Positions 11,431 to 17,852 of a DNA stretch of 26,760 nucleotides are shown here, piece after piece. The notes under the pieces were generated by a model. The model saw only the letters and a list, made by a program, of their open reading frames with translations. It was not told where the DNA came from and made no database searches. The DNA is taken from IMG/VR virus record IMGVR_UViG_3300017917_003769, positions 1 to 26,760 of that record; one strand, 5' to 3'. The stretch is from a virus. Position 1 is the stretch's first letter; each line of letters begins with the position of its first letter. Position numbers and translations under genes: made by a program.

Positions 11431-11793
11431 ATGTCTTTTACTAACTTACCAGTAACAAAAAATCAAAATAGCACTGTAGATTCGTTTGATAGATACTACA
11501 CAGATGACCTAGAATTAAATTCAACTGTGTTTGCAGCAATGAAGGCATTTTTTACCAGTCGTAATTTTGGAGAAGTTGCCAGTGATGCAATAACCACATT
11601 AATTATGCGTCAGGCAAAACAAGACGGTTATAATCCTATGGAGATTTTAGATACCCTCAAAGGTTATAATTCAGTTGATCTATCTTCTTTAGTTGCAGAA
11701 ATAATGAACTATAATCGTTTTAAAAGCAGCAGCCTAGGAATTGCACAACCTTTTAGAACTAACCCTGAAGTATTAAGAAACATCTTGGCATGA
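11431..11793 (+). CDS. Small probable structural protein
   Basis: The 120-residue, mostly helical protein contains FAAMKAFFTSRNFGEVASDAITTLIMRQAK and YNPMEILDTLKG. The 'NPxEILDTLKG' phrase is recalled from an uncharacterised structural protein of marine T4-like phages found near head and tail completion genes. It follows the tube-fold gene by two bases, with AAGAGG at 11418-11423 as the ribosome-binding site, and overlaps gp4 as ATGA. Its role is unknown; co-expression with gp4 and terminase suggests assembly. Confidence 0.65.
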   Translation: MSFTNLPVTKNQNSTVDSFDRYYTDDLELNSTVFAAMKAFFTSRNFGEVASDAITTLIMRQAKQDGYNPMEILDTLKGYNSVDLSSLVAEIMNYNRFKSSSLGIAQPFRTNPEVLRNILA

Positions 11794-12236
11794 GCTTAAA
11801 ATTTAGCAAGGGCATATATAAAATCAAAAACCCAGAAAAGTATGTAGGTGGCAAGCAACCTACATATCGAAGTTCGTGGGAATTTACATTTATGAGCTTT
11901 TGTGATAATAATCCTAGTATTAATCAATGGAGCAGTGAGCCAGTAAAAATTCCATATCGAGATCCTCTAACTGGCAAACAGACAGTATACGTTCCAGATT
12001 TTCTTATTGTCTATGTAGATAAGAATCACAAAAAACATGCCGAAATGATCGAGATAAAACCGATCAAACAAACAGTGTTAGAAAAAGTAGGAAAAAATCC
12101 CTACGATCAAGCACAGTTTGTAAAAAATCAAGCAAAATGGGCCGCAGCTACTCAATGGTGTCGACAACAAGGAATCCGTTTTCGAATTGTAAACGAAGGT
12201 GATATTTTCCACAATCCGAAAAAAGGAAATAAGTAG
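11790..12236 (+). CDS. 4: Head completion protein gp4 (PD-(D/E)xK-like)
   Basis: The 148-residue protein is co-linear with T4 gp4 (also called gp50): YRSSWEFTFMSFCDNNPSI (26-44) against YRSSWELKFMRWCDTNPNI, WSSEPVKIPY (47-56) against WSSEEVVIPY, and AEMIEIKP (84-91) against TVLVEIKP. Glu31, Asp70 and Glu88-x-Lys90 form the metal-binding set of the PD-(D/E)xK nuclease fold. In T4 this protein is needed to make filled heads competent for tail joining. It starts in an ATGA overlap with the upstream gene. Confidence 0.9.
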   Translation: MSLKFSKGIYKIKNPEKYVGGKQPTYRSSWEFTFMSFCDNNPSINQWSSEPVKIPYRDPLTGKQTVYVPDFLIVYVDKNHKKHAEMIEIKPIKQTVLEKVGKNPYDQAQFVKNQAKWAAATQWCRQQGIRFRIVNEGDIFHNPKKGNK

Positions 12237-12240
12237 TGTT

Positions 12241-12714
12241 ATGACTAAAAAACTAGAAGAACTTTTTAACCTTCCGGAAGAAGCTGTTATTCCGCCCGAA
12301 CCGCAGGAAGCGACTCCTGTTGCTACAATCGATCTTCAAGAAAAATTAGAAGAGTTTGATAAAATTGCAGAAGCATTGCCTAGAGTAAAAGGTCTAGGGG
12401 ATATGGCAGACAGTGAGTTAGATGCATTAGCAGCAAAAGCAGAACAGGCCTATGATGATCTAATGGATCTAGGAATGAACGTAGAAGCTAGGTACGGTGC
12501 TCGTATGTTTGAAGTAGCAGCCAATATGATGAACGCCGCGATTCAGGCTAAAAGTGCTAAAATTGACAAAAAACTAAAAATGGTAGATTTACAACTAAAG
12601 AAGCTAGCAATAGATAAAAAGCATGGAGAAGGAAGCGGTACCATTGAAGGCGAAGGTTATATTGTAACTGACCGTAATAGCATTCTAGCAAAACTTAAAA
12701 ATTTGAATAAATAA
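12241..12714 (+). CDS. 16: Terminase small subunit gp16
   Basis: The 157-residue protein has an acidic, Pro-rich N-terminus, a central helical region (about residues 35-110) with a long coiled-coil stretch rich in Ala and Met (GARMFEVAANMMNAAIQAKSA), and a C-terminal tail with GTIEGEGYIVTDRNSILAKL. This layout matches T4 gp16 (164 residues), which forms rings that recognise DNA and regulate the gp17 motor. The ATG at 12241 is preferred over an upstream alternative at 12199 because it follows the gp4 stop by four bases and an AAGGA lies upstream. Unusually, two other genes separate it from gp17. Confidence 0.75.
   Translation: MTKKLEELFNLPEEAVIPPEPQEATPVATIDLQEKLEEFDKIAEALPRVKGLGDMADSELDALAAKAEQAYDDLMDLGMNVEARYGARMFEVAANMMNAAIQAKSAKIDKKLKMVDLQLKKLAIDKKHGEGSGTIEGEGYIVTDRNSILAKLKNLNK
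12706..12713 (+). promoter_or_regulatory. Late promoter overlapping the gp16 stop (AATAAATA)
   Basis: AATAAATA at 12706-12713 shares bases with the gp16 stop codon TAA (12712-12714). It ends seven bases before the next ATG at 12721, with no Shine-Dalgarno between. Confidence 0.6.
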
Positions 12715-12720
12715 TAGACT

Positions 12721-13317
12721 ATGAAAACATTCAAAGAATACCTAACCGAGTCTAAAAAAACCTACGATTTTAGAATTAAAATTGCAGGCGACATGACTTC
12801 TGAAAAAGAAGATACAATGAAAAGATTGCTAGGTCGTTTTACTAATGAAAACACTCTACAATCTTTTAAGAAATCTAAAACTCCTATTCAGGCTGTTCCA
12901 CTAGATTTTCCCCAAGTTAAAAATTGTGAAGTTAACATCTATGAAGTTACACTAGATTTTCCAACTACACAATATGAACTAACAGAATATCTAGCTACAG
13001 AGTTAGGAATTGGTAAATCTCATCTTGTTGTTCGTCGCCCTGGTGAACCTAGTGAAGAATATCAAACTCCTGCTCCAGAACGTACAGGTGCCTTATTAGA
13101 TGATCCTGATTACAAAGAAGCAGGTAACGCAAACTTTGAAGATTTTTACGGGGACAAATATAACAGCGGATTCGTCAAAGAATTAAATGAAATTTTAAAA
13201 CTGCAAAGACGTGAACGTGGTGAAGAAATTCCCACTGAAGGTGCTGCAAAATTTAATACCGACAGTCCAGCAAATACTAAAAGCCCTATTCAACAGGCCC
13301 CCGATCCAAGGAAATAA
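12721..13317 (+). CDS. Candidate internal head protein with capsid-targeting peptide
   Basis: The 198-residue protein begins MKTFKEYLTES. T4 internal proteins I-III begin MKTYQEFIAEA, a ten-residue capsid-targeting sequence that directs them into the prohead and is cut off by the gp21 protease after Glu10 (consensus L/I-x-E|A/G/S). Here the match is Met-Lys-Thr-aromatic-x-Glu-aromatic-aliphatic-x-Glu, with Ser after the cut point. The rest is an alpha/beta domain (about 15-105, YDFRIKIAGDM, EVNIYEVTLDFP, SHLVVRR) with a disordered, charged, Pro-rich tail. The inference is a protein packaged in the head, perhaps ejected with DNA, or a head-assembly factor. It lies between the two terminase genes and has its own late octamer seven bases upstream. 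Confidence 0.55.
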   Translation: MKTFKEYLTESKKTYDFRIKIAGDMTSEKEDTMKRLLGRFTNENTLQSFKKSKTPIQAVPLDFPQVKNCEVNIYEVTLDFPTTQYELTEYLATELGIGKSHLVVRRPGEPSEEYQTPAPERTGALLDDPDYKEAGNANFEDFYGDKYNSGFVKELNEILKLQRRERGEEIPTEGAAKFNTDSPANTKSPIQQAPDPRK

Positions 13318-13319
13318 AC

Positions 13320-13895
13320 ATGCAAATGATTAACTTATTAAAACGTCTACAAGAACTTGACGCTCAAAATCCTAATGTAGTTTATGAGAATGAGCAAAAA
13401 GTTGAAGAATGTGGAATGATGCCTGAAATGGGGATGCCCATGGATCGCCCATCTACTCCTGCTACAATTAACATGACAGCTGGCAGTGCTGCTGAATTAG
13501 GCGATCTTCTTAAAGATATTGTAAGCCTAGCTGGAATGGATAAAGGTAGTTCTATGGAACCAATGATGCCTATGGCGGTTGGTGCTCCTGCAACATTAGA
13601 ACCTGCAGGATCTGATATGGATTCTATGCGTTCTGTTATTGACAAACTTAATGGCCCTGAAGACGACGAAAGTAACGACGAACAAGATAAAAAGCCAGTC
13701 GACGAGTACGATAATACACCAAATGATCCTGTAAAAGATGTAGACGAGTTTGATCCTGATCAACATGCACATCAAGAAAATCAGCCAGGTCAAGGCGATC
13801 GTATGGACGGAACTGCACCTAAAGCCTATTCAGATGTTAAAGAAGCATTTGAAGATTTATATAATCAATACAAGAAATTTGTATCTGAAAATTAA
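13320..13895 (+). CDS. Hypothetical Met/Pro-rich acidic protein
   Basis: The 191-residue protein has an amphipathic N-terminal helix (MINLLKRLQELDAQNPN), a Met/Pro-rich stretch (about 30-50), a predicted helix AAELGDLLKDIVSLAG, a long acidic linker (about 118-165, rich in Asp/Glu/Asn/Gln) and a C-terminal helix DLYNQYKKFV. I recall related companions of terminase genes in marine T4-like phages but no known function. AAGGA at 13308-13312 is its ribosome-binding site. The low complexity and acidity would suit a scaffold, core or DNA-mimic role, but this is speculation. A strong terminator follows. Confidence 0.6.
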   Translation: MQMINLLKRLQELDAQNPNVVYENEQKVEECGMMPEMGMPMDRPSTPATINMTAGSAAELGDLLKDIVSLAGMDKGSSMEPMMPMAVGAPATLEPAGSDMDSMRSVIDKLNGPEDDESNDEQDKKPVDEYDNTPNDPVKDVDEFDPDQHAHQENQPGQGDRMDGTAPKAYSDVKEAFEDLYNQYKKFVSEN

Positions 13896-13954: not shown

Positions 13955-15541
13955 ATGGCCAGTAAAAATATTGACAACAAGTTAGTTAAAACTGCACACG
14001 TTCAACAACGATTCACAGAAGCTGAAGTTCTTGAACTCGGTAAGTGTGCTAATCCTGTCGACGGACCACATTATTTTTTAGAACACTTTTTTTATATTCA
14101 GCATCCTGTTAAAGGAAAGCTACGATATGATCCGTTTGATTATCAACGAAGACTGATTGATAGTTACCATCAGCATAGATTTAATGTTAATCTACTACCG
14201 CGCCAGACTGGTAAAACAACCACGGCCGCAGGTTATCTACTGTGGTACGCTATGTTTGTACCAGATTCGACCATTTTGATCGCTGCACACAAATACACAG
14301 GCGCTCAAGAAATTATGCAACGTATTAGATATGCATATGAGCTATGTCCTAATCATATTCGTTGCGGTGTTACTAGTTACAACAAACAGAGTTTAGAATT
14401 TGATAACGGTAGTCGTATAGTTGCACAAACAACTACTGAAACAACTGGTCGTGGTATGAGCTTGTCATTACTGTATGCAGACGAGTTCGCATTCGTTCCG
14501 CCTAACGTAGCACAGGAGTTCTGGACTTCTATTTCTCCTACGCTAGCAACGGGCGGTAAGGCAATTATTACATCTACTCCTAATAGCGACGAGGACCAAT
14601 TTGCACTAATCTGGAAAGAAGCTAACAAAAAATTTGATGAATTCGGCAATGCAACCAACGTAGGACGAAATGGTTTCTTTCCTTTCAGAGCGTATTGGAA
14701 CGAACATCCTGACAGAAATGATAAGTGGGCCGAAGAAGAAAGAAGTCGTATTGGTGAAGAAAGATTTAGACGTGAGCATGACTGCGAGTTCTTAGTATTT
14801 GACGAAACTCTGATCAACAGTATTAAACTTGCCGAACTTGAAGGCAAGGATCCTTTTATGAAAATGGGACAATGCCGTTGGTACAAAAAAATCAACCCTA
14901 ATCACACTTATATTGTTGCATTAGATCCTAGTCTCGGGACCGGCGGGGACCCGGCGGCGATACAGGTGCTTGAAATACCAACTATGATTCAAATAGCGGA
15001 GTGGCAGCATAACTTAACAACTATACAGGCGCAGGCTAGAATTTTAAGAGATATTTGTAACTATATTCAGGAACAATGTGTAAGCAAAGGCGTTCAACCT
15101 AGCATATATTATTCTGTAGAAAACAATTCAGTGGGCGAAGCCGCATTGGTAGCAATTAGTGAAATTGGTGAAGAAACAATCCCTGGCCTATTCTTAAGCG
15201 AACCTATCAAGAAAGGACATGTTCGTAGGTTTAGAAAAGGTTTTAATACTACTCATGCCAGTAAAATTTCTGCGTGTGCTAAGTTAAAACATCTAATAGA
15301 AAGCAATAGATTAGTGCTACACTCAAAACCGTTAATTTCCGAACTTAAAACTTTTATCGCTAAAGGTATAAGTTTTGAAGGAAAAGTAGGTAGCACAGAC
15401 GATCTTGTAAGTAGTATGTTGTTGGCTATTAGAATGACTGTGATGTTACAAGATTGGGATCCGGCAATTTACGATAAATTGCGGGAAGAGCGAGAAGATG
15501 AGTTCGTTATGCCCATGCCAATCTATGTAAGCAACTTTTAA
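13955..15541 (+). CDS. 17: Terminase large subunit gp17
   Basis: gp17 is the ATP-driven DNA-packaging motor and headful nuclease. The 528-residue protein has Walker A LPRQTGKTTT (81-90), Walker B LLYADE (172-177), a coupling motif STPN (207-210) and the RNase H-like nuclease triad Asp324 in ALDPS, Glu389 in SVENN and Asp482/483 in GSTDDLVSSM, the same order as T4 gp17 (610 residues). The shorter length comes mainly from the ends. The ATG follows a late octamer by five bases. A 28-base GC-rich patch (14933-14960) encodes the first nuclease motif and differs sharply in codon choice from the rest of the gene. The stop codon overlaps the next late promoter. Confidence 0.96.
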   Translation: MASKNIDNKLVKTAHVQQRFTEAEVLELGKCANPVDGPHYFLEHFFYIQHPVKGKLRYDPFDYQRRLIDSYHQHRFNVNLLPRQTGKTTTAAGYLLWYAMFVPDSTILIAAHKYTGAQEIMQRIRYAYELCPNHIRCGVTSYNKQSLEFDNGSRIVAQTTTETTGRGMSLSLLYADEFAFVPPNVAQEFWTSISPTLATGGKAIITSTPNSDEDQFALIWKEANKKFDEFGNATNVGRNGFFPFRAYWNEHPDRNDKWAEEERSRIGEERFRREHDCEFLVFDETLINSIKLAELEGKDPFMKMGQCRWYKKINPNHTYIVALDPSLGTGGDPAAIQVLEIPTMIQIAEWQHNLTTIQAQARILRDICNYIQEQCVSKGVQPSIYYSVENNSVGEAALVAISEIGEETIPGLFLSEPIKKGHVRRFRKGFNTTHASKISACAKLKHLIESNRLVLHSKPLISELKTFIAKGISFEGKVGSTDDLVSSMLLAIRMTVMLQDWDPAIYDKLREEREDEFVMPMPIYVSNF

Positions 15542-15554: not shown

Positions 15555-17852
15555 ATGAAAGCTATTCAAATAATCTCTCAAGATCTTTTTGACAAAGTAC
15601 GCAGCCGATTTCAAAATTTAGAAATGGGTGACGAAACTGGGGCCATTACGATCGATCCTAAAGAAGCTCGTTTTTTTGATTTTGACTTTATACACGAAGG
15701 TGTAAACTTAGGTCGTGTTAGTATTAGTCTAGGTGATCTAGGCAGTTTAAAAGTTTACTATAGTCAAGGCATTACAGAAAATCAAGACGACATTGCTAAA
15801 AAAATGTGGTATAGTTTTTTAAAAGAAATGAGATTATTTGCTATGCGTCGATTATTACGTTTTGATACTAGAGATATCGCTAAAACTAATTTAGATAAAA
15901 ATGATTTCCAGCAACTTGCGGCGACACAAGGCCCGAAGGAAGAAACTATGAATATGAACGAATCCAGATGGAATAATAAAAGCACGAAGAAAACCAGTCG
16001 TGCAGTTAAAGGTACTACCGAAGTTATTGTTAGACATACAGAATCCATGGACGAAATGGCTCCTGGTCTAAGAAGTCATCCTAAAAAAATTAAGGCAATT
16101 TTTATTCAAAACAAAGACGGAGAAAGATTCAAATATCCTTTCATTCATCCGGCTGGTGCGTTTGCAATGGCACAGCACGTTGACCACGGTGGTATTCCCC
16201 ATGATCCTGCCGGCAAAGCAATTATGCGTATGAGTGAACAGATTGCACAGCTTCAAGAATTTCAAAAACAAGTCAAAACAGCTACCCTACATGATGATGC
16301 TTTAGGAATCACTGAAAGGGCCGTAGGCCGATTACACGAACTAAAAGCACAACTTGAAGCACTATCAAAGCGTCATCATTACGAATCATGGATTGCAGAA
16401 TTTAACGAAAGTGATAGTCTAGTGTCAGAACTTGATGCTGCTACTATGGAACAATACAAGGCAAAATTTACACAATCATCTTTTAACGAAAATCTTGCAA
16501 ATTTATTTCCACTGATACATAGTATCATGCAAGAAACAAATACAATTAACCTTGAAGATTATGTTGATACAGATCTTAAAGAAGGCGTGGCAGACATTAC
16601 ATTAAATGGAAAACCAGTTAATCTTAGAAGTCTTGAAATCGACGGAGTTGATAGAAGAGATCATCCAGATTATTCCGATGCGTATTTTTCTTACGGAGAA
16701 TACGCCGACGGAACACAGTTAACAGATGATGAATTAGAAAGACTTACCGACGAAAGAGGCGATATAGTTAATCAAATGGCCAACGATTCGATGTATGAAT
16801 CGGGTGATTCAATGGAACAATTTGAAGCATGGGCTGAAGCTGTAGAAAGTGGCGATTTAACTCAAGATCAGAAAGATTCATTAAAGGCAGAACTAGGCAA
16901 TTTAACAACTCCTTTAGATTTAGATAATGCATATCAATTTTTTAATCAATTTGGAATTGAAAGTGATAGCTTAGAACAAAAGTTTGATGCTGCTAAAGAA
17001 TTTCCAGACATGGATCCTTTAGAAGTATTCAAAGCATGGGCAAAAGAAGAAGGCAAGGAAGATCTTTTAAACTATATTGGTTTAAATACACCTGCTCCCC
17101 AGCCAGAAGCGCCTGCACCTCAACCTCCGGCACCGGAGCAACCCGTAGCCGAAGGCAAAGACCACGGAGCAGTCATTCAAGAAGTAGCGAAGATTGTTAA
17201 AAGTTTTTATAACAAAGATAATCCTAATGTGGGTCCATTTAGAGGTGAAGAAGGAATTGCTATTGATGTTGAAAAGCGTATTAGCGAAAAGTTTGGTGAA
17301 GAAATGGGACAACAGGCTAGAGCATTGGCAGAAAAATATATGGCAAAACTAACACAAGAATGGAACGAACGTCATGGGGGAACAGATATGCCAGTAAATC
17401 AAGATGACGGTTTAGCAAGACTAAAAGAATTATTAGGCAATGTTAAGGCAAAAGTTGAAAATATCGATGGACCTAAAAAGAGTGAGATTCCTGCCTATAT
17501 GCGTAAGGAAAAAGGTGGCGATTGGAAAACTTCTGCTCAAGATTTAGAAAAAGAAAAAGAACGCAACATTAGTGGACCAGAGGGTCTTAAGGCATTAAAA
17601 GCAAAACTAGGTCAATCAGAAGATCATAACGATACCTTTGATGCAAAATCTCATGCATACAAGACCACAATGAAACACGCCGACAATCCAACAGTACAAC
17701 AACGTATGGCAGCACACGACATTAAACCCGGTATTGCTGGATATAAAGACCGCATTGACATGCTAAAAGATTTGGAAAGAACCGGTAAATTAAAGAAAGA
17801 AGATGTCTCGGCATTTGAAGATATTATGAAATTAGCCGGATTGGCAAAATAA
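15555..17852 (+). CDS. Large probable virion protein, function unknown
   Basis: The 765-residue protein follows the large terminase. Its N-terminal domain (about 1-130) is alpha/beta (FDFDFIHEGVNLGRVSI). Next comes a domain with KKIKAIFIQNKDGERFKYPFIHPAGAFAMAQHVDHGG (about 175-211), a phrase recalled from large uncharacterised proteins of marine T4-like phages. A helical region rich in Gln/Leu follows, then an acidic region (about 335-500), a Pro/Ala/Gln linker (about 512-533) and a Lys-rich, mostly helical C-terminus (about 640-765). No enzyme motif is seen. The size, own late promoter and position suggest a structural or ejected protein. The tail GKLKKEDVSAFEDIMKLAG resembles a short docking helix. 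Confidence 0.65.
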   Translation: MKAIQIISQDLFDKVRSRFQNLEMGDETGAITIDPKEARFFDFDFIHEGVNLGRVSISLGDLGSLKVYYSQGITENQDDIAKKMWYSFLKEMRLFAMRRLLRFDTRDIAKTNLDKNDFQQLAATQGPKEETMNMNESRWNNKSTKKTSRAVKGTTEVIVRHTESMDEMAPGLRSHPKKIKAIFIQNKDGERFKYPFIHPAGAFAMAQHVDHGGIPHDPAGKAIMRMSEQIAQLQEFQKQVKTATLHDDALGITERAVGRLHELKAQLEALSKRHHYESWIAEFNESDSLVSELDAATMEQYKAKFTQSSFNENLANLFPLIHSIMQETNTINLEDYVDTDLKEGVADITLNGKPVNLRSLEIDGVDRRDHPDYSDAYFSYGEYADGTQLTDDELERLTDERGDIVNQMANDSMYESGDSMEQFEAWAEAVESGDLTQDQKDSLKAELGNLTTPLDLDNAYQFFNQFGIESDSLEQKFDAAKEFPDMDPLEVFKAWAKEEGKEDLLNYIGLNTPAPQPEAPAPQPPAPEQPVAEGKDHGAVIQEVAKIVKSFYNKDNPNVGPFRGEEGIAIDVEKRISEKFGEEMGQQARALAEKYMAKLTQEWNERHGGTDMPVNQDDGLARLKELLGNVKAKVENIDGPKKSEIPAYMRKEKGGDWKTSAQDLEKEKERNISGPEGLKALKAKLGQSEDHNDTFDAKSHAYKTTMKHADNPTVQQRMAAHDIKPGIAGYKDRIDMLKDLERTGKLKKEDVSAFEDIMKLAGLAK

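Follow-up and report, generated by a model that had tools for sequence, protein, structure and literature searches.

A T4-type capsid-targeting-like peptide on a conserved virion protein encoded beside the neck and packaging genes of uncultured T4-like phages

In phage T4 the proteins known to bear the capsid-targeting sequence are internal proteins, variable and for the most part dispensable, and a peptide resembling it at the start of a gene lodged among neck and packaging genes raises the question of what such a peptide would do there. The gene lies on a fragment of 26,760 bases from an uncultured T4-like phage (hereafter the window, meaning the whole stretch of DNA analysed), where an ATG-initiated open reading frame on the plus strand at 12721-13317 encodes a protein of 198 amino acids, p198, with the N-terminus MKTFKEYLTESKK (MKTFKEYLTE|SKK). 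An earlier note on this DNA had taken p198 for an unrecognised protein between the terminase genes, tagged for the prohead, processed after residue 10 and perhaps injected into the host as an anti-restriction protein.

Upstream of p198, on the same strand, lies its fixed neighbour, a gp4-type head closure/completion protein with a TnsA-like nuclease fold (11790-12236; PHROG 218, E 1.5e-41). The ORF directly preceding p198 (12241-12714, plus strand) is possibly the small terminase on a weak match (phrog_445, E 0.011), its top profile match being phrog_16202, a group without known function. Downstream, again on the plus strand, come p191 (13320-13895), a 191-residue protein that is the positional counterpart of the virion protein gp281 of phage PA5oct, and the large subunit of the terminase, gp17 (13955-15541; E 4e-120). 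The placement between terminase genes is thus certain on the downstream side and weak on the upstream one.

The first ten codons of p198 (12721-12750, plus strand) encode a peptide of capsid-targeting type, and its likeness to T4 was confirmed by reading ipII and ipIII from NC_000866, both of which start MKTYQEFIAE|A. The p198 peptide is identical to these at positions 1, 2, 3, 6 and 10 and similar at positions 4 (F/Y), 7 (Y/F) and 8 (L/I). In T4, according to the account of the tag in PMC9026906, residues 4 and 7 govern targeting and residues 8 and 10 processing, a tag with Asp10 being targeted and left uncut; section 2.5 of the same source gives L/I-X-E as the motif after which the gp21 protease cuts. 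p198 has this layout, with hydrophobic/aromatic residues at both targeting positions (F4 and Y7) and L8-T9-E10|S11 fitting L/I-X-E, which places a predicted gp21-type cut between E10 and S11 (12748-12753, plus strand). Taken by itself the L/I-X-E motif is weak, because it recurs in p198 at E75, E89 and E157; E75 is kept in 100 and E89 in 93 of 131 relatives, and both fall within predicted secondary structure.

To gauge the specificity of the whole peptide, the strict motif MK.[FY]..[FYH][LIV].E was scored at every Met-initiated candidate in ORFs of at least 60 amino acids. It matched once in each of three large relatives (one of 1254 candidates in G003, one of 1303 in G001 and one of 1719 in G002), each time at the p198 orthologue, and in none of the 1969 candidates of PA5oct; the 6242 other candidates of these four genomes contained no match. 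The earlier note had proposed a search for further starts of this type; as no genome gave more than one N-terminal match, the idea that a genome might encode more than one tagged protein, as T4 does, was dropped. Elsewhere the motif was found in T4 ipII and ipIII and in an internal head protein of Citrobacter phage CkP1, CkP1_0130, which falls in PHROG 2667 (T4-like internal head proteins) and carries the nearest tag outside the p198 family (MKTYKEFLTE|A). The profile of PHROG 2667 matches residues 1-53 of p198 (E 1e-3) and matches T4 ipII and ipIII only via their first 16-19 residues; its proteins differ from p198 in being small (about 99 amino acids) and basic, with a different body. Likewise, blastp of p198 against ipII and ipIII gave E-values of 0.2-0.3, with no similarity to these two proteins outside the tag. 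CkP1_0130 (L136:2001-2300) is annotated as hypothetical and adjoins the endolysin gene, as T4 ipII and ipIII adjoin gene e.

Conservation of the peptide was assessed within the clade of the window. A first IMG/VR scan gave at least 80 close relatives (at least 496 of 599 stretches confirmed), and together with later scans it yielded 192 distinct clade proteins of at least 120 amino acids; three of 217 distinct proteins fell below this length and were left out, and five of 136 selected rows were omitted for length from the alignment A3. After a shift by one residue of those rows in which Met is followed by an additional Thr or Ser, position 4 was F in 184 proteins, L in 7 and Y in 1; position 7 was Y in 166, H in 24, F in 1 and L in 1; position 8 was L in 187; and position 10 was E in 188, K in 3 and D in 1. 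In 189 of the 192 a small residue (S, N, G or A) follows the predicted cut. Because two of the scans used N-terminal patterns, a separate count was made of the 104 clade proteins that a DNA pattern covering residues 54-64, and so blind to the N-terminus, had picked up as well: F4 was present in 96, Y, H or F at position 7 in all 104, L8 in 99 and E10 in 101. Among 27 relatives retrieved with the N-terminus-blind pattern and 30-45% identical over residues 15-198, Y7 and E10 were invariant and ranked second and third of the 198 positions; the mean majority share fell from 0.78 in residues 1-11 to 0.60 in the domain and 0.49 in the tail. Both neighbours of p198, upstream and downstream, were kept in 49 of the 50 loci with room on both sides among the first 80. 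The clade members without Glu10 carry Lys (the L032 group, L463 and L469) or Asp (L371), and in L463 and L469 the sequence after position 10 is altered too (TKRTFDF).

Beyond the clade, p198 is not quite as unrecognised as first supposed. It matches PHROG 14802, 'virion structural protein', over residues 1-110 (E 2e-4; PA5oct 7e-8, Atu_ph07 6e-10), and tblastn from p198 leads to PA5oct-type Pseudomonas phages and Atu_ph07, and through these to the RaK2-like jumbo phages. RaK2 ORF047, GAP32_204, CBB_210, 121Q gp557, a PBECO4 protein and BF gp206 fall in this PHROG, as does PA5oct gp282. Queried against viral contigs, PA5oct gp282 found no relative and the Atu_ph07 protein only Atu_ph07 itself. 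The order tail tube, gp4-type protein, hypothetical protein, p198 is kept in GAP32, CBB, XaC1, RaK2, 121Q, BF, Hallingskeid and XbC2. The large terminase follows closely downstream in the window clade, PA5oct, Atu_ph07 and Phosso, and not in the RaK2-like stretches read. The RaK2-like members and PA5oct gp282 share with p198 the homologous domain, the neighbours (gp4-type head closure and hypothetical) and a ten-residue N-terminal helix that is hydrophobic at positions 4, 7 and 8, and differ from it in a position 10 that is mostly not Glu and in a C-terminal half that cannot be aligned. Two annotated starts are at odds with the family N-terminus: that of Atu_ph07 AUZ94910 (L135:6001-6756) lies about 29 codons too late, an upstream in-frame ATG giving the family N-terminus MKTLQDYLTESKK, and that of RaK2 ORF047 (L212:3929-4549) precedes the family start MINLQKILTD by 24 codons.

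Members of the family have been detected in virions. CBB_210 is listed with 13 unique peptides and 60.5% coverage in the virion data of PMC5259590, and PA5oct gp282 carries the annotation ESI-MS/MS. For Atu_ph07 the published account gives 131 virion proteins; the main text on MIJ3 names four virion proteins by mass spectrometry, the p198 counterpart not obviously among those named. On profile, synteny and these detections, p198 is best described as a head or virion protein and a divergent member of PHROG 14802. No paper assigning a capsid-targeting tag to the family was found in the literature covered, in which subscription journals are little represented.

The distant relatives differ from the clade at position 10 of the peptide. 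Across 22 distinct sequences (the L275 row, with an extra residue before Lys, being read one residue later than its raw string), position 4 is L in 20 and F in 2, position 7 is I, Y, F or V, and position 8 is L in 20, while position 10 is D in 9, E in 6, S in 4, A in 2 and G in 1, so that the L/I-X-E site does not extend family-wide. Glu10 is present in CBB and GAP32 (MNKLQKILTE, followed by Leu11), Asp10 in RaK2 and BF. The PA5oct counterpart is in the virion although it has Ala at position 10; from this, and from Glu being present in just 6 of the 22, it follows that incorporation in distant relatives does not depend on processing. On a tree of the 22, built from whole proteins with position 10 included and with several long rows, residue 10 changed at least 10 times and was hardly clustered, a count as low arising in 37 of 200 shuffles. 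The processing after residue 10 proposed in the earlier note is therefore likely for the clade and does not carry over to the whole family. New here is the pattern that targeting positions 4 and 7 remain hydrophobic throughout, while the presumed cleavage residue is nearly always Glu in the clade and variable in the distant relatives. The distant family looks, by inference, like the T4 residue-10 experiment run by nature.

A structural model places the peptide outside the folded part of the protein. AlphaFold2, run with 131 relatives, gave a mean pLDDT of 76.5 and a pTM of 0.50 for p198, with a predicted helix at residues 4-10, a ferredoxin-like core, a predicted long helix at residues 145-165 (13153-13215, plus strand) and then a low-confidence tail. 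The core, residues 15-110 (12763-13050, plus strand), is predicted as strand-helix-strand-strand-helix-strand in an S6-like arrangement. Mean pLDDT is 70 over residues 1-10 and 82-92 in the domain, and since the structural matches to S6 and similar proteins start at p198 residues 11-16, the tag falls outside the predicted domain. Pfam gave no match up to E 1, a PDB sequence search with the 131-row profile nothing below E 0.4, and Foldseek against the PDB no match at E ≤0.001, its best rows being ferredoxin-like or S6-like. VIA-align scores did not exceed Z 7.5, an ordinary value for this common arrangement, and we accordingly took no function from the fold. Against viral models Foldseek gave six matches at E ≤0.001, and four of the top five were unnamed or uncharacterised phage proteins of 181-260 amino acids. 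No T4 IPI structure stood among the best 50 matches listed in either structure list, which says nothing either way.

The window, a 26.7-kb fragment, does not reach far enough to reveal gp21 or gp23, both of which are present in relatives. Of 12 clade contigs, 7 contain the gp21 family (PF03420), among them every one of the five above 100 kb; the five without it are fragments of 51-81 kb. The family is present too in 13 of 13 named records, T4 included; the gp21 homologue that the earlier note had asked after thus exists in the relatives. The gp23 family (PF07068) accompanied gp21 in all seven gp21-bearing clade contigs, and was found in 9 of 40 on a wider check. An L-x-E or M-x-E-type site with Glu before the cut stands in every capsid protein read, from 9 of 9 clade contigs and from 12 of 12 named relatives; in the clade the capsid-protein N-termini read RR[YH]L[AG]E|[AS]ATAGATS or a close variant, a site matching both SFLTE|A of T4 gp23 and [YH]LxE|S of p198. 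A cut at this site would follow by analogy with T4. Co-variation of Y/H7 with the residue preceding the capsid-protein site agreed in most contigs with both residues read, but the contigs were few and related, and this line was dropped.

The tag, its conservation, the matching site in the capsid protein and the occurrence of gp21 and gp23 in relatives are read directly from sequence, and together with the orthologues in virions they uphold a capsid-targeting-type N-terminus with a gp21-type L-x-E|S site. The reading we prefer, at a probability of roughly two in three, is that p198 is a conserved virion protein, probably of the head. Its N-terminal ten residues would dock it on the prohead core, after which the shell closes; in the window clade a gp21-type prohead protease would then cut after Glu10, and the mature protein of 188 residues, a ferredoxin-like domain with a helical acidic tail, would stay in the head, presumably inside it. 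Where position 10 is not Glu, as often in the RaK2-like relatives (Asp, Ser, Ala or Gly), the protein would still be targeted but left unprocessed, as in the T4 Asp10 mutants. Further observations count against this reading: the neighbours of p198 are neck and packaging genes rather than core genes, the mature protein is acidic unlike the T4 internal proteins, and E10 is missing in 4 of the 192 clade proteins.

The leading rival reading draws on the same neighbourhood. The N-terminal helix might instead dock p198 on a portal, neck or terminase partner, p198 being a packaging or vertex protein, its likeness to T4 convergent and Glu10 kept for binding. The fixed position beside the gp4-type head closure, tail tube and terminase genes would suit such a role, as would the acidic mature protein and the free replacement of Glu10 in RaK2-like relatives (at least 10 changes over 22 rows) while the capsid protein keeps its Glu before the cut in all sequences read. 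We nevertheless consider it rather unlikely, as the conserved positions 4, 7, 8 and 10 follow the targeting and processing positions of T4 and not merely an amphipathic helix, the residue after the cut is small in nearly every clade protein, and the clade capsid proteins carry the same [YH]LxE|[AS] shape. Chance can be set aside with more assurance. The peptide is only ten residues long and L/I-x-E occurs three more times in p198, but the motif appeared once per genome in three of three large relatives, always in the orthologue and never among thousands of other candidates, and it is conserved across the 192 distinct proteins; a resemblance by chance is unlikely, and conservation in practice refutes a short low-information match as the explanation, leaving it barely credible.

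The injected anti-restriction protein of the earlier note fared poorly. The treatment of internal proteins in PMC9026906 describes how tagged T4 proteins are ejected along with the DNA and how one of them, IPI, inhibits a restriction enzyme; by analogy p198 could be an ejected effector of this kind. The tag is, however, the sole ground for the anti-restriction idea, and p198 has no likeness to the T4 internal proteins compared (ipII and ipIII) outside it. The same source describes the T4 internal proteins as basic and poorly conserved between relatives, and the values for ipII (net charge +5, pI 9.6) and ipIII (+10, pI 9.7) contrast with those computed for mature p198, residues 11-198 (−5, pI 5.2). 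Where T4 has three variable genes sharing with p198 the ten-residue layout and a gp21-type site, the p198 clade has one conserved gene per genome, at a fixed locus in phages of many hosts, and no defence or restriction context was seen within the window. We therefore regard an ejected effector as improbable; p198, being single-copy, syntenic and acidic, looks more like a protein of structure or assembly than like an accessory effector. A parallel of another kind is DarB of phage P1, in which, as proposed here for p198, an N-terminal stretch (of 30 residues) guides cargo into the head; PMC9024508 reports no common sequence and describes P1 as lacking a separate scaffold, a further difference.

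Motifs resembling tags were also noted at the termini of neighbouring genes, as motif counts alone, without homology or structure tests. The C-terminus of p191, YKKFVSEN (13869-13892), looks like the p198 tag placed at the other end of a protein. The pattern [FYW]..[FYH][LIV].E within the last 12 residues occurred only in the p191 orthologue in G003 (1 of 386 ORFs) and G001 (1 of 364), and in none of the 519 ORFs of G002. Of 153 distinct proteins at the p191 position, 46 matched this pattern, 22 had an LAG tag instead, none had both and 78 had neither. A second pattern, [IL]..L[AS]G[LIM].K, is common to the C-termini of the gp22 scaffold (DIRKLAGLK; L121-L127) and of a 765-aa protein (IMKLAGLAK; 15555-17852 in the window, C-terminus 17823-17849), being matched by regular expression in 11 of 19 gp22-type and 31 of 64 765-type distinct C-termini; most matches of I..L[AS]G[LIVM] in G001-G003 were head proteins of these two types. 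It could be a second tag for docking on the core or shell.

A broader proposal can be built on these patterns, which we offer only tentatively. Prohead loading may follow a code of terminal tags, with the T4-type tag at the N-terminus of p198, one of the same kind at the C-terminus of p191, and the second tag ending the gp22 scaffold, the 765-aa neighbour and part of the p191 proteins; evolution would have uncoupled docking from cutting in p198, the docking positions being ancient and the cut lost repeatedly or gained in some lineages.

As it stands, a T4-type tag on a conserved gene of uncultured phages and of jumbo phages infecting many hosts may belong to core head assembly, and not only to the loading of accessory cargo. 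The natural Asp, Ala and Ser10 sequences of cultured phages would offer a ready way to learn whether, outside T4, targeting can be separated from processing. The preferred reading would also give a first role to an unexplained, well-detected virion protein of the RaK2-like phages.
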